Virus record (IMG/VR): IMGVR_UViG_3300036792_000213
Coordinates: 1 to 39,210 of that record
Source of the DNA: a virus
Length of the DNA: 39,210 bases
Direction: 5' to 3' (one strand)
This document shows, one piece after another, positions 7,078 to 38,321 of this stretch. Numbering within the stretch: position 1 is the stretch's first letter; every line of letters begins with the position of its first letter. The notes under the pieces were generated by a model, which was given only the letters and a program-made list of their open reading frames with translations, was not told the DNA's origin and did no database searches. A program made the translations under genes and the position numbers.

Positions 7078-9933
7078 ATGACGGTATTTGCCAACAACAC
7101 CTCAGCTACGGTTACCAGTGGTGGTACTACCACGTCGGATACCAGCTGGACTGTAGGCAGCATTACCGGCTTTCCCACGTCGCTGGCTTCAGGCCAGACA
7201 TTCCATGTAGCTGATACTGCACCCGGCTACACCGGAGAAAAGATCCTGGTTACCGCGATCAGCGGAAGCGGCCCTTACACCTGGACGGTAGTCCGGGGTG
7301 ACGAAGGAACTACTGCGGTAGCGCACGTAGCCAGCTTCAATATCCAGCAGGTAGTAACCGCCGGAGAATTTACCTCTCTTTCCCTGGGTATTTACAATGT
7401 TAAAACTTACGGTGCTAAAGGCGACGGGTCCACCGACGACACCACCGCTATTACTAACGCACTAAATGCTGCTGGGAATGCTGCCAGCGACGGCATGGTG
7501 TACTTCCCGCCCGGCGTCTACATTTCTGGCGCTCAGTTCATCCCGCAGAATGTGCACGTGCAGGGCTCTGGGATAGTAAACACTACGGTTAAGCTGAAGA
7601 CGACCGCCGCGAAGTTCGACAACCTGTTCACTAACGCTCAGTTGATCGGCACTACTTTTGACGCGAACTGCTGCCAGGTAAGTGACATGACCCTGGACGG
7701 GCAGGCAGGCGCACAGACCGCTACAAGCCCCTGGCAGGCAGGACTCGTGTTCAATACGCGTCCCCCGTCCGGCGGCTTCGAGTACAACGACGGGCGTCAT
7801 GTAGCGCGCAACTTGCTGATCCAGAACTTTACCGGCGACGGACTGGTGCAGTACCAGCAGGGCGTGTGCCAGTTCAGCAATATCCAGGTCTGGCTGTGCA
7901 ACGGGTTCGGCTTTAACTGCAACCAGGACTCTGAATATGTTAACTGCGACGCGGGCGCTTGCGGACTGGACGGATTTGTTATCCAGGGTGGTTCTAACCG
8001 TTTCAGCTCTTGCAAGGCGTGGTTCTGCGGGGCATCGATGACCAGCTCTCGCGGAACGGGCGCGACCGCACTGACTGTGAACGGCCCGACCGGCACGGGT
8101 GCTCCAGCTTGGGACGGTACTGCCGTAACCAGCCTGGTTTTCTCCCTGGCTAACGGCTGGGGGAACGGCTGGGTGCTGGCGGACATCACATCCGGGCCAG
8201 GCGTGAACGGCAACTACGCTGGTAACGACTTCTCTGCCTGCGGCGCGCAGGACAATGCCAGGGCAGGGTGGAGGCTAAGTGGCGGCCGGTTCACTCTGGG
8301 CGGGTGCTCGGCAGATTCCAACTCCAACTGCGGTTGCACGTCCGGCACCACGCCGCTGGCGTCCTTCCCCGGCTTCGAGTTTCCCAACGGCAACTCGTCC
8401 ACGGGTGTAGTAACTGGTTATTCCTTCGACCGGGGCGCGAACACCAACCACCAGCAGGCCGGAATGTACCTGGGCTCGTCTCTCGGCAGCCTGGACATCC
8501 ACCTCGTTATCGACGGAAAATTGAACAACGGTACCACCAAGATGCCCGCGCTGTTGTCGGGCAGCAGTACCACCTCGCTGGGCGGGGTGAATGCTTTCAT
8601 CGGCGGGCACTCGCTGTTCTCCCCGTTCGACGTGATGGCGTGGGGCGCGCAGGGCGACGGGTCCACCGACGATACCACCGCTATCAATGCCGCGATAAGC
8701 GCTGCGATCAGCGCGGGTGGCGGTAAGGTATATATCCCGGCAGGCACTTACAAGTTCACTAACCTCACCTGCACTACATCGTCTTCCACTGTCGCAATCC
8801 CGGTATATATAGAGGGCGATGGCACAGAAGCGACTATCTTGAAGTGTTATGCCACTTCCGGTGTCGGCCTGGATTATTACGGCAGCAGTACTACTGCAAG
8901 CGTGGATGGCGGCGGCGTATCGAATCTGACCATCGACGGCACAAATGCCAGCGCCGGAGTCGCCGGGCTGAAGATGCACGACCTGTTCCAGCTACGGGTA
9001 TATGACGTATTCGTTCGTAACTTCAGCGGTACCGGGTCCAAAGGCGCGTGGTTCTGCAACACCTATACCTGGACTGAAGCACTGCACGGCCGGATCTACC
9101 TGGCCAATAACACTGCTAACTGCGTATTCGACGTGGCTTCGTCCGGTACCACTGCTACCTCCAGCTTCGCGCGCCTGGACCTAGATATCTTCATTACTCA
9201 GGGAACGGCAAGCTTCGACGGTGTAGTGCTCCAGAACGGCGCGGTGCTCTACGACGGCCGGTTCTCGATCCGGGGAAACTTCACCTCCAGCGCATCAGCG
9301 CTGACTTCCGCTGTGCTCCGCCTGACGGGCAGCGTACCCACCGGCCACCCCGGCGCGGGCACTGTCTTCTCCTCTATCACCTTCGGGCGAGTTGAAATCG
9401 GCGTGGAGGTGGACAACGCACAAACCAACAAGCCTATTACCATCGTGTCTAATGCGGGCGGCAACCTGTTCCAGAACTGCTACGGCATTATGGACTTCAG
9501 CAACGGCGGCGGCGCGTTCACTGCGGCTGCGGGCAACTCGTTTATCTATCCGTTCAATGGTGTTATCAAGGGTGACGCTACCCTACAGGGTATATCCGGC
9601 ACAACGCAGATAGCCGCTTACAACATGCCCGGCGGTGTTGCTATCGGCAACTTCTCAAGCCCGGCGACTATCGCAGCCTCGGGAACAATCAGTACGGCTG
9701 CTACCAGCTTTGCCAAAGTCACCAGCACGGGCGCGGTAGGCGGTGTTATTCTCCAGGCAGGTACTTACAGTGGCCAGGTCTGTGTGGTAGTAAACTCGGG
9801 CAGCAACACAATCACGTTCGCTATCTCGGGTACGTCGCATGTTGCGGACGGTACTTCGGACGCTATCAGCGGCGGTACAGGACGGATGTTTGTGTGGGAC
9901 GAGAATAACAGCCTCTGGTATCACATGACCTAA
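7078..9933 (+). CDS. Tailspike / minor tail protein, pectate-lyase fold
   Basis: A 951-residue virion adhesin, possibly a depolymerase. Residues 1-105 form an attachment-type N-domain (Thr/Ser/Gly-rich, GFPTSLASGQTFHVAD). A Pectate_lyase_3-type opening follows (YNVKTYGAKGDGSTDDTTAI, about 106-125), leading into a right-handed beta-helix. A second opening is at about 518 (FDVMAWGAQGDGSTDDTTAI), so the protein appears to carry two beta-helix domains in tandem. The C-terminal 110 residues resemble a small beta-sandwich tip. Catalytic residues are not assignable by eye. ATG 7078 lacks a ribosome site but follows a TATTCT box by 7 nt, suggesting leaderless expression. It likely binds or cleaves a host surface polysaccharide. 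Confidence 0.82.
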   Translation: MTVFANNTSATVTSGGTTTSDTSWTVGSITGFPTSLASGQTFHVADTAPGYTGEKILVTAISGSGPYTWTVVRGDEGTTAVAHVASFNIQQVVTAGEFTSLSLGIYNVKTYGAKGDGSTDDTTAITNALNAAGNAASDGMVYFPPGVYISGAQFIPQNVHVQGSGIVNTTVKLKTTAAKFDNLFTNAQLIGTTFDANCCQVSDMTLDGQAGAQTATSPWQAGLVFNTRPPSGGFEYNDGRHVARNLLIQNFTGDGLVQYQQGVCQFSNIQVWLCNGFGFNCNQDSEYVNCDAGACGLDGFVIQGGSNRFSSCKAWFCGASMTSSRGTGATALTVNGPTGTGAPAWDGTAVTSLVFSLANGWGNGWVLADITSGPGVNGNYAGNDFSACGAQDNARAGWRLSGGRFTLGGCSADSNSNCGCTSGTTPLASFPGFEFPNGNSSTGVVTGYSFDRGANTNHQQAGMYLGSSLGSLDIHLVIDGKLNNGTTKMPALLSGSSTTSLGGVNAFIGGHSLFSPFDVMAWGAQGDGSTDDTTAINAAISAAISAGGGKVYIPAGTYKFTNLTCTTSSSTVAIPVYIEGDGTEATILKCYATSGVGLDYYGSSTTASVDGGGVSNLTIDGTNASAGVAGLKMHDLFQLRVYDVFVRNFSGTGSKGAWFCNTYTWTEALHGRIYLANNTANCVFDVASSGTTATSSFARLDLDIFITQGTASFDGVVLQNGAVLYDGRFSIRGNFTSSASALTSAVLRLTGSVPTGHPGAGTVFSSITFGRVEIGVEVDNAQTNKPITIVSNAGGNLFQNCYGIMDFSNGGGAFTAAAGNSFIYPFNGVIKGDATLQGISGTTQIAAYNMPGGVAIGNFSSPATIAASGTISTAATSFAKVTSTGAVGGVILQAGTYSGQVCVVVNSGSNTITFAISGTSHVADGTSDAISGGTGRMFVWDENNSLWYHMT

Positions 9934-9998: not shown

Positions 9999-10586
9999 AT
10001 GTCCGGTTACACGATGTCGCAGGGGGAAGTGCTCTGGGCTAGTTCTCAGGCTGGTACCAACGACACTTATGCTGCGGGTACCGAGCAGTCCCTGATGGGC
10101 GGACTTACTCCGTGCGTTATCCCCGCCTTTTACTTTCTCAACAACACCAGCACAGGCCGTACCCTTAAACTGCGTGCTTCCGGACTTATCACCTGCGTCT
10201 CTGCTGTTACGTGGACCTGGAACGTCCGTCTGTTCAACGGCACGAACACGTTCACTGCTGGCGGCGGCATCGGACTGGGACCGACACCTGCTCTTACCGC
10301 TCCGTCTTCGGCTACCCTCGCACCCTGGTTCCTGGACCTGGACATCGTGATGCGCAACGTAAACCCTGGTGCTACGTCGGTTATCTGTGCACAGGGAGAA
10401 GTTCGCTCTTCACTCGGCCTTGCGTCCCCGTTCATGGGTCCGATGCCCGGTGCTAACACTACTCCGCAGAACTCCGTCTTCGACAACTCTGCGACCTGGT
10501 ACCTGCACGTCACGCTGCTGTCCAGCTCTGCGTCGGCTTCTAACCTGGCGAACCTTCAGATGGCAAAGCTCTACGGAGAGAACTAA
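9999..10586 (+). CDS. Putative virion (minor tail) protein
   Basis: A 195-residue protein, rich in Thr, Ser, Ala and Gly with aromatic beta-strand patterns (VTWTWNVRLFNGTNTF; TWYLHVTLLSSS), consistent with a jelly-roll or beta-sandwich virion protein. It has no signal peptide or membrane segment. A strong GGAGG lies 3 nt before the ATG. It sits between a tailspike and two modular adhesins, so a role as a fibre, decoration or spike-associated protein is likely. I do not recognise a specific family; assignment as structural rests on composition and neighbours. Confidence 0.6.
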   Translation: MSGYTMSQGEVLWASSQAGTNDTYAAGTEQSLMGGLTPCVIPAFYFLNNTSTGRTLKLRASGLITCVSAVTWTWNVRLFNGTNTFTAGGGIGLGPTPALTAPSSATLAPWFLDLDIVMRNVNPGATSVICAQGEVRSSLGLASPFMGPMPGANTTPQNSVFDNSATWYLHVTLLSSSASASNLANLQMAKLYGEN

Positions 10587-33100: not shown

Positions 33101-35043
33101 CTGCTGGCGGCAACTTGATCGGCTCGTGGTCCGGAGCCAGCGGATCTGACAGTTTCGGCAATACCTATCCCGCTGGTCTCAGCGTGCAGCAGGGCGTAAT
33201 CACAGGTATCGACATTGACTCGGTTACCATTACCAACGCCACGCTTCAGGGTGACATCCTACAGGGCTCTACAATCACCAACCCGACCATAAACGGCGGC
33301 ACGATTGACGAAGCCGCCATTACGTTCGATTCGGGCGGCGGCAGTCAGCTGGTATATACCAGCAGCACCACAACCGTTACCCAGACTGCCAACGGTGCGT
33401 ACACGTTCACTGTTCCGGCCGGGGTAACCAGTCTTATGGTGGAATGCTGGGGTGCCGGTGCCGGTGGTAACGGCGGTACGACTTCTCTCGGCGGCAGCGG
33501 CGGCGGTGCCGGACAGTACAGCGCGCACCTGAATTACCCCTGTATCCCCGGCCAGGTGTTCTCGTACACGGTCGGTAACGGCGGCGGAGGCGGTACTACA
33601 GGCAGCGGTAACGGCGGCGACGGCGGCGACACGTTCTTCGACGGCAGCGGAGGCGTGTACGCGAACGGCGGCCAGGGCAACGGCAACGGCGGAACGGGAG
33701 TCCAGGGAGCGGGCACTGTCTTCCACACGGGCGGTAACGGCGGCGGGGTAGGTTCTACGGGTGGCGCTTCCGGCGGTAACTCGGCTAACGCTTCACCGAC
33801 CAGCGGTACGGGTAACAGCGGCGCGGCTTCTACCACCTCTACCGGGCATGCGTCTCCCTCAGCTCAGACAGGCTCAGGAACCGGCGGGGCGGGCGGTAAC
33901 AGCGGAGCTAACGGCTCTAACGGAGGTGCGCCTGGCGCTGGCGGCGGCGGTGCGGGCAAGGGCTCTACCACCAGCACACTGACCAAGACGTACGCGCCGC
34001 TGTGGTCAGGATCGTACCTCGGACCTGATGCAACCAGCGGAGCTAACACCCTGCGGTCAGCGTTCACGATGTACCAGGGCGGTGAAACGGCTTCCGGCGG
34101 TGCGGCGAACGGCAACCAGTACAGCATCTTTGCGTTTGACCGGGCGACGATCGCGGCCGATTTCAGCGGATTTACGGTCACTGCAACCAAGCTCCAGCTG
34201 GCTAACCTGCACTCCTGGTACGGCAGCGGAATGACGATCGCGTTTGACGAGTACGCGGGCCTGCCGGGTTCGGTGCCGAGTACGGGACCGCGCGGCAACT
34301 ACTTTGTCTCCCCGGCCAGTGCTACCACCGCTGAAGGAGCAACGAATAACTTCAGCCTCCCTGCCTCGGTGGGGCAGCGGTTCGTTACCGGGTCTGACAA
34401 CGGTATGGGAATCGGGTATACGACGTACACGAACCACCCGTACAACCTCGGGTACTACGGTTATTTCGACGGCTCTCAGACGCGGCTGACAATCACCGGA
34501 ACAGGCGGCAGTGCAGGATCGTTCAGTGCGGGTAACGGTGCTGACGGCCAGGTAAAAATTACCTATATCTCCAGCACCACACTGGGCGCAGCAGTTGCCC
34601 CGGTCAGCGGAACTGATTCCAGCAGCAATGCCTACGCAGCAGGCTTTACCGGCCACGTTGCGGCATTCCAGCCCGGCAGTTCGCCTACGGCAGTAGAAAC
34701 TTGGCACACCCTGTCTATATCGCTGACCGGCTGGGCCACTACAACCGGCGGCCAGATTCCGCTCCAGTACTGCTACGTGCCTATCGGTCCTAACGGGTCC
34801 ATATGGATAGTCGGAGACATCACGGGAACTGCTATTAGCGCCAGCACTGCAATCGCTACACTTCCTACAGGCTACCGCCCGACCGGCGGTAATCCCTTGT
34901 CTCTCCCCGTGTGCCGTTTCGGCGGAACGCTCTCGTCTGCCGACGACGGTATCTGTCAGATATCCACCTCTGGTGCTCTTCAGCCGTTTAACTGCAACGG
35001 AGCTACGCGCTTGATCTTTAATGCAGTAATCCCCATCCTATAG
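30169..35043 (+). CDS. Giant tail-tip / fibre protein
   Basis: A 1624-residue virion protein. Residues 1-23 carry one 20-residue repeat (GAFTAAVTAQAAFAGQKI) shared with the upstream adhesins. Residues 24-650 form a distal-tail-like beta domain with MNASTLTVTLKNTDGRFTPD. Residues 664-964 hold about 30 ten-residue repeats (ITATQIANAT; ITGSNMANAT), a beta-helical stalk. Residues 1078-1268 are a glycine-rich domain, preceded by YTFTVPAGVTSLMVECWGAG and reminiscent of phage adhesin tips. A C-terminal beta domain ends at NAVIPIL. GTG 30169 overlaps the tape-measure stop as TAGTG. It likely forms the distal tail and host-binding fibre in one chain. Confidence 0.8.
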   Translation: MATVNGAFTAAVTAQAAFAGQKIITSGFPHHQLNAKVELLVNTTWTDITHYVLVRDDLTMVIGRPDEASSMNASTLTVTLKNTDGRFTPDNSSGAYYPYVQLNTQIRVSVTDNSVTGVAYTGYRFWGEVSEWPPQWDPTGKDVYATISASGIWRRLSQSTTTIGSPYTRYTKSLANVAAYWPMEDGQGATTFATLVPATSNAMTMVTTNGSPSLASCSAFPGSDAIPQLSGAEFNGQITSSSHPSHIFFRHAMFVQGGGDSGVTAGQVVSKLHTAGTVATIEVGLASAAGGGPITITGYNGSNSVLFTGSITANIWGIPYLVQVSLDQVSSNVQWEMRLIIPNTNVDAGTVRGLVPGTVDDATVVIFNNNAAFQGVSVGQASVIYGDPSIATAAYALGGWNGENALTRFQRICTEQGIPTAAIGSTSTTMGPQLDDTLVNVLQTVEDTDGGLIYETQNMFGLGYRTMSSLQNQTSALTLNYASQQVGQPLAPVNDDALVRNDITLTNYDGYAVRVFLQNGARSLNPPPNGVGSGYSYSRNTNSTSHTQVNALGSQILNTGTVAQNRYPNVTVNLARVTTAPLFNSAPAMREGDYLQITNMPSFGGLATQKQLVWGWTETINDYTWNLVYNTIPEAPWESSFNPGTSATGQVPGAPITAGQSNTVTGAQIAEGAIIGSNIATGGVTGSNIATAAITAVNIADATITGTQIAAGGIGATNIANASITAAQIANATITSTQISGSANITGSQIASATITGSNMVNATITATQIANATITGAKLVSGTITATQIANATITGSNLVNGTITATQIASATITSSQISSSAGITGSQIASGTIAAGNITNATITNTQIASGTITGSNIGASTITGSNMANATITNVQISNGTITTTQISNSANITGTQIATGTVAGSNIAAGTITASNIAAGTITATQIAANTITAGKLVGGIVVAGIVDATTITGASIVTDGATGQFLIYSGTPAGGNLIGSWSGASGSDSFGNTYPAGLSVQQGVITGIDIDSVTITNATLQGDILQGSTITNPTINGGTIDEAAITFDSGGGSQLVYTSSTTTVTQTANGAYTFTVPAGVTSLMVECWGAGAGGNGGTTSLGGSGGGAGQYSAHLNYPCIPGQVFSYTVGNGGGGGTTGSGNGGDGGDTFFDGSGGVYANGGQGNGNGGTGVQGAGTVFHTGGNGGGVGSTGGASGGNSANASPTSGTGNSGAASTTSTGHASPSAQTGSGTGGAGGNSGANGSNGGAPGAGGGGAGKGSTTSTLTKTYAPLWSGSYLGPDATSGANTLRSAFTMYQGGETASGGAANGNQYSIFAFDRATIAADFSGFTVTATKLQLANLHSWYGSGMTIAFDEYAGLPGSVPSTGPRGNYFVSPASATTAEGATNNFSLPASVGQRFVTGSDNGMGIGYTTYTNHPYNLGYYGYFDGSQTRLTITGTGGSAGSFSAGNGADGQVKITYISSTTLGAAVAPVSGTDSSSNAYAAGFTGHVAAFQPGSSPTAVETWHTLSISLTGWATTTGGQIPLQYCYVPIGPNGSIWIVGDITGTAISASTAIATLPTGYRPTGGNPLSLPVCRFGGTLSSADDGICQISTSGALQPFNCNGATRLIFNAVIPIL
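30184..30237 (+). repeat. Single 20-residue repeat at tip protein N-terminus
   Basis: Encodes GAFTAAVTAQAAFAGQKI, the unit otherwise found in the adhesins at 10639 and 12406. It suggests sequence exchange between structural genes. Confidence 0.7.
32160..33060 (+). repeat. 30-bp (10-residue) beta-helix stalk repeats
   Basis: About 30 units of consensus A-T-I-T-[GA]-[ST]-[QN]-I-A-N, in near-perfect 30-bp register. They are of the type seen in trimeric phage fibre stalks. Confidence 0.85.
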
Positions 35044-35354: not shown

Positions 35355-35693
35355 ATGATAACGATTGCCGCCAAGACATGCCCCGAGTGCAGTGATAAGT
35401 TCGTGCCGAAGTCAGTGAAGCACAAGTACTGTAGCAAGGAGTGCAGGGAAAGAACTAAAATGACTCCTCAGTACACGGTAACTGACCCGTCGAACCACTT
35501 GCTGAGCCTGGGCACGCCCTCTGCCATGAGCTGCGGTGTGATGGAGACAGAGGACGGCCCGTTCCTTATCCTGACGGTGCGTACTACGTCGGCAACTGTG
35601 ACTGTTTCACTGGCGGAAAAGGAAGCGCTCGGCTGGCTCATTGAGATCGGGAAGAAGATCAGCGCTATGCAGAAGAGTAACCCGGAGAGTTAA
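35355..35693 (+). CDS. Zinc-ribbon small protein
   Basis: A 112-residue protein. The N-terminal 32 residues form a zinc ribbon (Cys9, Cys12, Cys26, Cys30: CPEC then YCSKEC). The rest is a small alpha/beta domain (DGPFLILTVRTTSATVTVSL; EALGWLIEIGKKISAM). The ATG 35355 has a weak ribosome site. An internal ATG at 35460 follows AGGGAAAG and could give a form without the zinc ribbon. Its stop overlaps the stop of a minus-strand small gene in TTAA (35690-35693). Likely a nucleic-acid-binding protein; no specific role. Confidence 0.6.
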   Translation: MITIAAKTCPECSDKFVPKSVKHKYCSKECRERTKMTPQYTVTDPSNHLLSLGTPSAMSCGVMETEDGPFLILTVRTTSATVTVSLAEKEALGWLIEIGKKISAMQKSNPES

Positions 35694-35803
35694 CCGTCGC
35701 CGTCGTAGTAGTTCAGTGCGAGCAGGACACAGGCGGCTACAGCCTCCAGGAACACGATAGCCATCGCTATTTCTGCCCAGTACTGCCTTATCCATCTACG
35801 CAT
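35690..35803 (-). CDS. Tiny single-span membrane protein
   Basis: A 37-residue protein. The start is basic (MRRWIRQYW), followed by one hydrophobic span (IAMAIVFLEAVAACVLLALN) and an acidic end (YYDGDG), so it should cross the membrane once with the N-terminus inside. Its ATG overlaps the stop of the upstream minus gene by 8 nt (ATGCGTAG), the same junction geometry as at the next gene pair. It is the last gene of the minus operon. A holin or anti-receptor function is conceivable but unsupported. Confidence 0.6.
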   Translation of the reverse strand: MRRWIRQYWAEIAMAIVFLEAVAACVLLALNYYDGDG

Positions 35804-36770
35804 AGTTCTTGTCCGGCGGGAAGTACCTGGTCAGTGCGCTCTGGTCGGACAGAATCCGGGCACTAGGGTACTCATGGCTTAGCCAGGCTTCGACGGTAGC
35901 GATCCGGGCCATCAGCTGAGACCTCTCTACCGGGCGGTAATCGCAGCCGTTGTCAGAGGTGTAATTGCCCGCGCCGGGCGTACCCCATACGCTAGCTCCT
36001 GCGCTGCCTCCGAGGGCATTCCACACTGAACCGCTGGCATAGCCCTCTTCGTAACGGTTGCCGTAAGAGCCGTATCCCCGGCCCATGTCAACGTTCCAGG
36101 ACAAAAGCTTGACCGCTTTCGGGGGAACGCACAAGCCGATGATCTCGGCATACTGCGACCTGAATCCTTTTTCCCCGATGATGACGCGGCCGGTTCCCCT
36201 GACGACTCCGAAGATGGGAAGATCTATGTATATGCCGTTGAACCTCGGAGTATCGTGGTAAAACCCGCTCATAATCTCCTGCACGTCCAGCTGCTTGTCG
36301 AAGTAAGCCCAGAATCCGCAGCCGCACGGCTCTCTGTACTCCGGAGGCTCGTGCGTAAGGCCGAGGTGAACAGGAGTAGTTGAAAAGGAAAAGCTGTAGC
36401 TAGTAGCAGTACACCGGGCTGTCTGCTTTCCGTCAGTCCAGGTGCAGTTGTTGGCCCCGGTCAGCAGCCCCCTGTAAGTGCTGGCAAAGTACTGGTCGTA
36501 ACCCCGGACTTTGAATCCGGCGAGAGTTGCAGGCACGGGCAGTTTCCACCAGCGGTAGCCGTGCACTTCCCCGATCGCCATGTCCCACTCGTCGGGAGCG
36601 CCTTTTTCGGAGAAGCCGTCGATGCCCGTGGACGTAATAGGAGGCTTGTCGTTACTCACCGGGTCTCCTGTGTGAATACGCAGCTTGTTTGCGGTATTAA
36701 TCCGGCCGGTAGGTCCACCGAAGGCAGCATATATCTGCTGGAGTGCACGACGGTTGATGAAGCTAGCCAT
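35796..36770 (-). CDS. CGFWAY-family protein, longer paralog
   Basis: A 324-residue protein of unknown function. The N-terminal helix (FINRRALQQIYAAFGG) is unique to this copy. Shared with the upstream paralog are DGFSEKGAPDEWDMAIG then GYRWWKLPVP, a Cys/Gly motif CGCGFWAY (149-156), GRVIIGEKGFRSQ (194-206) and the closing PPDKNYA. A GYRxW, CxCGxxA, E-x-GFR-x-Q series resembles a domain in many actinobacterial proteins of unknown role. A Gly/Tyr/Ser-rich insert lies near 250-290 (GRGYGSYGNRYEEGYASG). The ATG at 36770 overlaps the upstream stop by 8 nt (ATGGCTAG); the longer upstream frame is rejected. Confidence 0.7.
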   Translation of the reverse strand: MASFINRRALQQIYAAFGGPTGRINTANKLRIHTGDPVSNDKPPITSTGIDGFSEKGAPDEWDMAIGEVHGYRWWKLPVPATLAGFKVRGYDQYFASTYRGLLTGANNCTWTDGKQTARCTATSYSFSFSTTPVHLGLTHEPPEYREPCGCGFWAYFDKQLDVQEIMSGFYHDTPRFNGIYIDLPIFGVVRGTGRVIIGEKGFRSQYAEIIGLCVPPKAVKLLSWNVDMGRGYGSYGNRYEEGYASGSVWNALGGSAGASVWGTPGAGNYTSDNGCDYRPVERSQLMARIATVEAWLSHEYPSARILSDQSALTRYFPPDKNYA

Positions 36771-37566
36771 AATTCTCGTCCGGCGGGCAGGCGTAGTAGA
36801 GATTGCCCATACTGGCATGCACACGGACATCAGCGCCGAGAACTTCCGTGACCGCACTGTCGAATGCGTTCCGTACTACCTCGCTGCTGACCATAAACGT
36901 CTGAGCGAGGAAGGAAATTATCTCCATTTGCATCTGCTGAGGACCGCTGAATGCAATGGAAACCGGATCGGTTATACTATTCAGGTTTATGAACTCCCCG
37001 ACACTATGATCCTGGTCTTCGTAGTAGCAGGGCAGTTCTGTGCCTGCGACCGTTATGTCGGTGACCTTGGCCCGCTGGGTCCTGAAGCCCTTTTCACCGA
37101 TGATGGTCCGGCCGCTGCCCTCTATCACTCCGAAGAGCGGAATGCTGGCTATGTACCCGTGTGCCCGCTGGAAAGTTACGCACGGATGCGTTCTGTAATC
37201 GCCCTGGTCACTCCAGTACGCCCAGAAACCGCAGCCGCAGCTAGGCTCAGGAGCAGGGTGACAGGATTGAGGCAGGAGGCTCGTAGTAAAACCGTAGCGC
37301 TCGCAGACAGCCTTGTGCCAGCCGTCCGGCTTCCTGCTGTACTGACTCCAGCAGCCTCCGTGCATTCCCGCGACCGCAATATTGGTGAACGAAGGCGTCC
37401 ATTCCGACATAGGCCAGGGGATATCCCTTGTCGTAGTCGTGTACCTGCCCAGGAGACTGGAGGACCTGACGAAGGGAAGGCGCAGCTGCCACCATCGGTA
37501 GCCACGTACCGTACCCACTGCCATGTCCCACGCCTCAGGCTCGCCCTTTTCGTGGAATCCGTCCAT
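36763..37566 (-). CDS. CGFWAY-family protein, shorter paralog
   Basis: A 267-residue protein (269 from GTG 37572). It begins with DGFHEKGEPEAWDMAVG and GYRWWQLRLP; near residue 68 is GMHGGCWSQY. The conserved CGCGFWAYWSDQ is at 110-121, followed by IPLFGVIEGSGR and TIIGEKGFRTQ (154-164). A C-terminal helix (SEVVRNAFDSAVTEVL) precedes the shared end PPDENYG. Cys, Trp and Gly are strongly over-represented, suggesting a small metal or ligand site. No ribosome site is clear; re-initiation after the 43-residue gene just upstream is likely. Function unknown. Confidence 0.7.
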   Translation of the reverse strand: MDGFHEKGEPEAWDMAVGTVRGYRWWQLRLPFVRSSSLLGRYTTTTRDIPWPMSEWTPSFTNIAVAGMHGGCWSQYSRKPDGWHKAVCERYGFTTSLLPQSCHPAPEPSCGCGFWAYWSDQGDYRTHPCVTFQRAHGYIASIPLFGVIEGSGRTIIGEKGFRTQRAKVTDITVAGTELPCYYEDQDHSVGEFINLNSITDPVSIAFSGPQQMQMEIISFLAQTFMVSSEVVRNAFDSAVTEVLGADVRVHASMGNLYYACPPDENYG

Positions 37567-37575
37567 GTGCACGGG

Positions 37576-37707
37576 TCAGGCAGGAACCGGCTCGGCTACG
37601 GGCACGATCTCAGGAGACGGCTCCTCGACCGGGACAGTAGTAGGCATCGGTACCAGGATGATGCGCTCCTTGTCCTTACCGATGTCACCCGCGTTGATCG
37701 TCCTCAT
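37576..37707 (-). CDS. Tiny Pro/Glu/Val-rich protein
   Basis: A 43-residue protein that starts MRTINAGDIGKDKERIILVP and ends in a Pro/Val/Glu-rich tail (VPVEEPSPEIVPVAEPVPA). GGAGGA lies 3 nt before the ATG on the minus strand, and the ATG overlaps the regulator stop as ATGA. The tail should be extended; the N-terminal part has the look of a short binding peptide. It sits between the regulator and the paralog pair, possibly as an adaptor or antagonist. No function assigned. Confidence 0.65.
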   Translation of the reverse strand: MRTINAGDIGKDKERIILVPMPTTVPVEEPSPEIVPVAEPVPA

Positions 37708-37955
37708 GGTTCCTCCGTTTTGTCAGGTTTGCGTGCGTACCTCTCCTGCAACAGCACGTCTTCCGGACTTATTCCGAGTGCGGTGACCAGTCTCCGGAAG
37801 GCGCTGACCAGGGGCATCTTGCGGCCCTGCTCGTACGAGGCAACAGAGTCGCAGGACATCCTGGCAGCCTCGGCTAGCTCGTGCTGCGTCATGTACCGCA
37901 GGTGCCGGTAGTACTTGAGCAGTCCAGGATCGATGCGTACCCGGTCTCTCGCCAC
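37704..37955 (-). CDS. Xre-family HTH regulator
   Basis: An 83-residue Cro/CI-type regulator. The helix-turn-helix is LKYYRHLRYMTQHELAEA followed by MSCDSVASYEQGRKMP (about residues 13-48), a standard HTH_3 layout with recognition helix near 35-42. The remainder is helical (SAFRRLVTALGISPEDVL) with a charged tail (KPDKTEEP). GTG 37955 is the start; it has no ribosome site but a TACAGT box 6 nt upstream, consistent with a leaderless mRNA. It heads a five-gene minus operon and faces the RF-1-domain gene across 18 nt, so it probably controls both. Confidence 0.8.
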   Translation of the reverse strand: MARDRVRIDPGLLKYYRHLRYMTQHELAEAARMSCDSVASYEQGRKMPLVSAFRRLVTALGISPEDVLLQERYARKPDKTEEP

Positions 37956-37973
37956 GATGATACTGTACCGCTT
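37956..37973. promoter_or_regulatory. Shared divergent -10 region
   Basis: Only 18 nt separate GTG 37955 (minus) and ATG 37974 (plus). The palindromic heptad TACTGTA (37961-37967) offers TACTGT on the plus strand, 7 nt before the ATG, and TACAGT on the minus strand, 6 nt before the GTG. Both match TAnnnT and would give leaderless transcripts from overlapping promoters. Confidence 0.5.
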
Positions 37974-38321
37974 ATGGGCAAGGAAAAGCTGTTCTCCGTG
38001 ACGCTGGACGACTGCGAGATACAGACGTTCCAGGCAGGAGGACCGGGAGGTCAGCACCAGAACCACAGCAACACCGCCGTACGCATCGTCCACCGGGCCA
38101 GCGGAGCCTCAGGGGTATCGCGGCAGGAGCGCTCTCAGCTACAGAACAAGAAGCAGGCGTTCCGCCGGATGACTGAGGACCCGAAGTTCAAGGTGTGGCT
38201 GAACCGGGAGATCTTCCGGCTGGACGGCAAGCCGTCGCCCGAGGAGCTGGTCAAGAAAGACATGGCCCCGGACAACCTGCGCGTAGAGGTGAAACAGAAT
38301 GGCAGATGGGCGGTAGACTAG
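37974..38321 (+). CDS. RF-1-domain (GGQ) peptidyl-tRNA hydrolase-like protein
   Basis: A 115-residue protein consisting of the RF-1 catalytic domain. AGGPGGQHQNHSNTAVRIVH (21-40) contains the Gly-Gly-Gln at 25-27 that releases peptides from tRNA on the ribosome. The rest is a basic tail with SRQERSQLQNKKQAFRRM and KFKVWLNREIF. It lacks the codon-recognition domains of RF1/RF2, like ArfB/ICT1 rescue factors and the short RF-1-domain proteins seen in several actinophages. ATG 37974 keeps the family N-terminus (KEKLFSVT); GTG 37998 is a shorter alternative. Likely role: ribosome rescue or translational control during infection. Confidence 0.8.
   Translation: MGKEKLFSVTLDDCEIQTFQAGGPGGQHQNHSNTAVRIVHRASGASGVSRQERSQLQNKKQAFRRMTEDPKFKVWLNREIFRLDGKPSPEELVKKDMAPDNLRVEVKQNGRWAVD

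Follow-up and report, generated by a model that had tools for sequence, protein, structure and literature searches.

XRE-DUF397 pairs of Streptomyces, namely Scr1/Scr2 and their relatives, were proposed to be toxin-antitoxin systems and were found to be regulators (PMC10364602, PMC6262351). DUF7666 (PF24703) is a domain of phages and giant viruses to which no function has been assigned. Symmetric bidirectional promoters are also known in bacteria, and the start sites that they generate most often lie 18 bp apart (Warman et al.; PMC12825309). Here we compare with these systems a group of minus-strand genes from the IMG/VR virus record IMGVR_UViG_3300036792_000213 (positions 1 to 39,210; this whole 39,210-base stretch is referred to as the window), which comes from a virus of soil actinobacteria, that is, an actinophage. 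Like the XRE-DUF397 pairs, the cassette comes from an actinobacterial setting and has a small gene after its Xre regulator. Unlike them, its small protein is not a DUF397 protein, its Xre has 83 aa against about 280, lacks DUF5753 and matches only HTH families (HTH_31, E=4.7e-10; HTH_3, E=8.3e-8), and the conserved unit consists of the microprotein and a protein of the family that we call CGFWAY, the Xre being optional.

A first-pass annotation had described five genes packed head to tail on the minus strand, with overlaps at every junction except that between the 43-residue gene and the short paralog. All of them are present with coordinates that agree (Table 1): the Xre stop and the microprotein start overlap by 4 nt (ATGA), the short and long paralog genes by 8 nt, and the long paralog and 37-aa membrane genes also by 8 nt, while a 3-nt gap separates the microprotein stop from the short paralog start. 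Their position between the tip-protein genes and the RF-1 gene was likewise confirmed. On one side, a tail-tip gene ends at 35043 and small plus-strand genes follow up to 35693, where the last one stops after overlapping the 3' end of the membrane gene tail to tail; on the other side the RF-1 gene begins at 37974. The plus strand of the window encodes, among others, a glycosyltransferase, an epimerase, a tail spike and the tail-tip genes. The RF-1 gene (PF00472, E=1.6e-16; phrog_3122, E=6.7e-38) lies outside the cassette, since it is missing beside the cassette of a related contig, L001. The paralogs are 38% identical over their matched stretch, and the 37-aa protein contains one hydrophobic 19-mer with a mean Kyte-Doolittle value of 2.7.

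Table 1. Features of the minus-strand cassette and its divergent neighbour in the window.
Feature	Positions	Strand	Remarks
Single-span membrane protein, accessory	35690..35803	-	37 aa; hydrophobic stretch
Long CGFWAY paralog	35796..36770	-	324 aa
Short CGFWAY paralog	36763..37572	-	269 aa; GTG start; family profile; predicted zinc-binding
Microprotein, GDIG...EPVPA family	37576..37707	-	43 aa; profile A6; amino-acid-level selection
Xre-family HTH-only regulator	37704..37955	-	83 aa; GTG start; probably leaderless
Divergent intergenic region, candidate shared symmetric -10	37956..37973		18 nt
RF-1-domain (GGQ) gene, divergent neighbour outside the cassette	37974..38321	+	PF00472, phrog_3122

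In the window, a GDIG...LEP-type microprotein gene lies directly upstream of the CGFWAY genes on the same strand, and both paralogs hold the CGFWAY core (C...H...CxCG, GxGR...GFR). This order, with the microprotein gene directly upstream of a CGFWAY gene on the same strand, was found in phages and in many bacterial chromosomes. Our first microprotein profile, built from only four sequences of the window phage group, was searched against the 14,303 reading frames of the loci fetched to that point, and 29 of its 30 matches adjoin a CGFWAY gene, training sequences and duplicate loci being counted. A broader profile (A6, consensus MGDIGxxxRxIELEPxPxExPVxEPAPxPxPEPVPA) and the CGFWAY profile were searched independently against one set of 395 genomes, all from a single actinobacterial class. 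CGFWAY was detected in 38 of these genomes, the microprotein in 33 and both in 32 (hypergeometric p 7e-40), co-occurrences that are not independent events because the genomes are related. In 31 genomes the two matches shared a strand and were separated by 0-507 nt; in one further genome the members were on different contigs, near the contig ends, and the 33rd microprotein genome, G306, carried a frameshifted CGFWAY gene directly downstream. A partner was present in 33/33 microprotein genomes and was a same-strand neighbour in 32/33.

Pairing was also seen across unrelated phages, and 24 of the 27 whole records with the large gene contained the microprotein (6 of 7 bacterial genomes, 18 of 20 viral records), its stop often overlapping the CGFWAY start as ATGA or GTGA. 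No microprotein was detected in the CGFWAY-bearing Streptomyces phages pSt2308, GiJojo and BRock or in two other viral records, in a search run without a positive control; with these CGFWAY-only records, the pairing is not absolute. As to whether the genes occur separately in related phages, a question that the first-pass annotation had raised, the outcome was divided: the cassette can do without the membrane gene and the short paralog, and the Streptomyces phages have CGFWAY with no microprotein found, but the Xre-microprotein-CGFWAY core stays joined in several lineages. Beyond the reach of the first-pass annotation was the finding that the 43-aa gene makes up a deeply conserved pair with the CGFWAY gene.

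Next to this linkage stand the properties of the two proteins. The median pN/pS was 0.23 for the microprotein head vs 0.27 for its CGFWAY partner; these values show that the microprotein is a real protein selected at the amino-acid level, and that the CGFWAY protein is under the same kind of selection. The most conserved part of the microprotein is its N-terminal GDIG...LEP. Among 71 CGFWAY family members, C90, H105, C112 and C114 are conserved in 71, 64, 71 and 69, respectively, position 114 being C or H in all 71; a zinc site has this pattern, and the protein probably binds zinc. AlphaFold2 modelled the window short paralog with a confident, beta-rich core (pLDDT 78, pTM 0.77) and a compact relative, L039, with a pLDDT of 86 and a pTM of 0.82. 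Foldseek searches of the CGFWAY models against solved structures gave nothing with E below 0.4, the compact L039 model included, so the fold may be new or a match may have been missed; in the viral library they returned only two relatives, both of unknown function.

Searches of CGFWAY against Pfam, PHROGs and NCBIfam gave no match above chance level, and comparison by sequence with solved structures gave none. The microprotein had no match in Pfam or PHROGs. In PADLOC there was no match to CGFWAY, and the only cassette protein matched was the Xre (generic HTH), which is also the sole cassette protein matching a known family. We found no close relative of the long paralog in isolated phages and none of the short paralog in plasmids; the relatives of the short paralog in isolated phages are distant Streptomyces phage proteins only, and the Enemella CGFWAY protein had no plasmid relative. 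Literature searches for conserved pairs and for DUF7666 turned up nothing relevant. A regulator-led phage accessory cassette is of a known kind, and its cargo here is undescribed in the family databases searched.

The likeness to DUF7666 is limited to the placement by hhalign of C..GFH.C against CxCGFWAY, with the next V..xG strand in register, and to three DUF7666 proteins among the weak Foldseek viral matches. We rejected CGFWAY as a DUF7666 member, the hhalign probability being 4.5% (E 0.009) and the Foldseek E 0.3 or worse. Pfam, DUF7666 included, gave no match in ten A1 members or in most of the chromosomal members tried, and one chromosomal protein, L101, matched other domains only. The C[TS]CGIYA proteins of the Streptomyces phages GiJojo, LuckySocke, BRock and pSt2308 do belong to the CGFWAY family (tblastn E 8e-6 to 3e-3; aligned in A1). 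Unlike those of the window, they occur as a single copy and with no cassette, and the microprotein was not found in three of the four phages by the search without positive control.

We compared the cassette with those of three related viral contigs, L001, L002 and L003. Xre, microprotein and long paralog occur in the same order and at the same site in all three, a recurrence that makes the arrangement more than chance, and tail-tip genes flank the cassette in each. L002 and L003 contain RF-1, Xre, microprotein and both paralogs, so that the short paralog has a counterpart in 2/3 related contigs, and L001 contains only Xre, microprotein and long paralog, with no RF-1. For the 37-aa membrane gene we found no counterpart in any of L001-L003, and on this comparison it is accessory and unconserved. 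The long paralog is 51% identical to that of L001 and 43% to that of L002 (tblastn). When 71 family members were placed in a tree, the long copies grouped in a clade with a support of 99 and the short copies in a separate clade with a support of 98, indicating that the duplication happened before these phages split. From one relative to another the cassette CGFWAY proteins share 39-55% identity vs 80-83% for the adjacent RF-1 protein; such a divergence is expected of a host-facing gene, and weaker constraint fits it too. Two rearrangements were also seen in these contigs. In L003 (8348-8827) an opposite-strand HNH-type gene is inserted at the xre 3' end, with ~30 bp of the xre end on both sides, and in L001 (8509-9469) an HNH gene and another frame stand in place of RF-1 between its usual neighbours.

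In temperate actinophages, exclusion or defence is a frequent role of cassettes led by a regulator. A module for superinfection exclusion or prophage defence, whose effector would be the 37-aa membrane protein, would suit the small membrane protein encoded at the operon end, but we consider it unlikely, given that no counterpart of the membrane gene was found in L001-L003, that PADLOC gives a generic HTH match only and that the core pair is also found in ordinary chromosomes. Moreover, we detected no integrase of the tyrosine or serine type (PF00589, PF00239) in the possibly incomplete records of the window, L001 and L003, and this result makes lysogen-type exclusion a less favoured reading. 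Three other pair-bearing phages carry a tyrosine integrase.

Orthologues of the Xre are present in L001-L003, and relatives of it adjoin CGFWAY genes in five further loci. In L021/L023 and L022, which represent other phage lineages, an Xre of the same broad kind is followed by microprotein and CGFWAY genes in that order, and in L015 and L026 it precedes the CGFWAY gene alone. No such Xre accompanies the chromosomal pairs examined, with the exception of an HTH gene of weak similarity that lies near L051 on the opposite strand. The regulator thus appears to have been added by phages; as it is absent from many phage pairs too, it is also optional. These results bear on a toxin-antitoxin-like or XRE-DUF397-like unit, in which an Xre acting as antidote or activator would be partnered by the microprotein or by the CGFWAY protein. 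The overlapping genes and the order of Xre and then small gene, which is the XRE-DUF397 layout (PMC10364602, PMC6262351), would agree with such a unit. Nevertheless it seems improbable to us, because Pfam gave no DUF397 match for the microprotein and no DUF5753 match for the Xre, and because the examined chromosomal pairs, in which no Xre is adjacent, indicate that it is not an obligate partner.

If the small gene were a mere translation-coupling leader for the CGFWAY start, its EPVPA end would owe its conservation to a Shine-Dalgarno-like sequence in the codons, and in most loci GAG-rich codons do stand right before the ATGA/GTGA overlap. We give this very little credence, since the strongest conservation is at the N-terminal GDIG...LEP, far from the junction, the pN/pS of the microprotein is low at 0.23, and the window junction has its 3-nt gap and no clear Shine-Dalgarno. 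Two phages of 160-180 kb, with five CGFWAY matches, also retain one stand-alone microprotein copy at least 7 kb from any of them, which argues for action as a protein over a leader peptide.

Neighbours of the pair in other phages include Bro-N/ANT or pRha antirepressors and PD-(D/E)XK-type, RecT-like or deaminase genes, and the CGFWAY relatives of the Streptomyces phages GiJojo and BRock are within 3 kb of the genome end; these regulatory and recombination neighbours and genome-end sites, together with the chromosomal copies, argue against a virion role. A virion-associated accessory set encoded on the other strand beside tail genes, which would suit the adjoining tail-tip genes of the window and its close relatives and the ~4 kb between CGFWAY and a tail gene in L015 and L026, is a very improbable explanation, as the cassette is also on the opposite strand in all close relatives and has no similarity to PHROG structural families.

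We also studied the 18 nt that separate the RF-1 ATG (37974) from the Xre GTG (37955). On the minus strand TACAGT (37967-37962) is placed 6 nt before the Xre GTG, and on the plus strand TACTGT (37961-37966) is placed 7 nt before the RF-1 ATG, nearly the same bases serving in both directions. Both genes lack a Shine-Dalgarno, whereas most window genes have one. TANNNT at such a spacing occurs at 4% of positions, and GGTACAGTA with a 17-nt spacing is retained in L002 and L003. When the site was scanned for generic sigma-70 promoters, no -35/-10 pair emerged. This region is a candidate symmetric promoter, by its likeness to consensus only, from which two divergent leaderless messages are predicted. 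It would resemble the symmetric bidirectional promoters in its candidate shared -10 and in the 18 nt between its start codons, near their commonest 18-bp distance, and differs from them in that the start codons of the window would coincide with the transcription starts. In L001, xre has a longer N-terminus and a Shine-Dalgarno in place of the symmetric promoter.

Three further observations concern these elements. A wider regulon marked by GTACAGTA was considered and rejected, the sequence being found once in the window, no more often than expected by chance. In L041 copies of the GGTACAGTA word closely flank the microprotein-CGFWAY pair on both sides (9594-9602 and 10426-10434). The tail spike gene that starts at window position 7078 lacks a Shine-Dalgarno and is preceded, at 7 nt, by TATTCT; it is another candidate leaderless gene.

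The first-pass annotation took the set for a cassette with its own purpose, such as superinfection exclusion, host takeover or anti-defence. The general part of this proposal gained support: the set faces away from the virion genes, its order is kept in relatives, it has a candidate promoter of its own, and its core genes have relatives in early or regulatory phage regions and in bacterial chromosomes, features that speak against a part in virion assembly. The three particular functions are candidates only: PADLOC matched just the generic Xre, and the failure to find an integrase in the window and its two long close relatives weakens lysogen-type exclusion. On balance we favour, with moderate confidence, a non-virion accessory actinophage module built on a pair shared with actinobacterial chromosomes, whose proteins would form a complex, be regulated by the Xre and act against the host; host takeover or anti-defence are plausible roles. 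In such a module the microprotein would bind the CGFWAY protein, its GDIG...LEP head docking on the zinc-binding beta domain. The Xre would control its own operon at the symmetric promoter, which would also drive the RF-1 gene. The phage carries two copies of the large partner and has put the unit behind the small Xre gene. Orientation and neighbours suggest that the module is produced separately from the late virion genes. In the host cell it may replace, compete with or inhibit the host pair or the target of that pair.

A further-reaching proposal, which we put forward only tentatively, is that the pair represents two halves of an undescribed actinobacterial system with a new fold, which large actinophages have repeatedly acquired, multiplied and placed under Xre control to hijack or block the host version. 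The pair occurs in many actinophages and, within one actinobacterial class, in about 1 in 10 of the genomes sampled; its small member, of only ~40 residues, is easily missed in annotation. The phage cassette offers a compact, testable version of it with duplicated partners. If phages turn the pair against the host's own copy, this would point to an unrecognised actinobacterial target. The shared promoter, in turn, is a clean candidate for a symmetric promoter yielding two leaderless messages.

Finally, we observed CGFWAY-type domains in unusual settings. In L101 (6160-7799) a chromosomal CGFWAY-type protein is fused to an SCP2 stretch and a GcvH-like one, and the gene immediately upstream encodes 50 aa rich in proline. 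In L114 (773-1999) the domain is followed by a C-terminal stretch that looks like a glyoxalase on visual reading, and a MDIGRERRTIYIEPEPLP microprotein is encoded immediately upstream; these fusion partners were too mixed to name one function from them. The 181 and 163 kb contigs L016 and L020 carry three CGFWAY genes in ~6 kb and another beside an Xre elsewhere, an expansion of the family in large phages.
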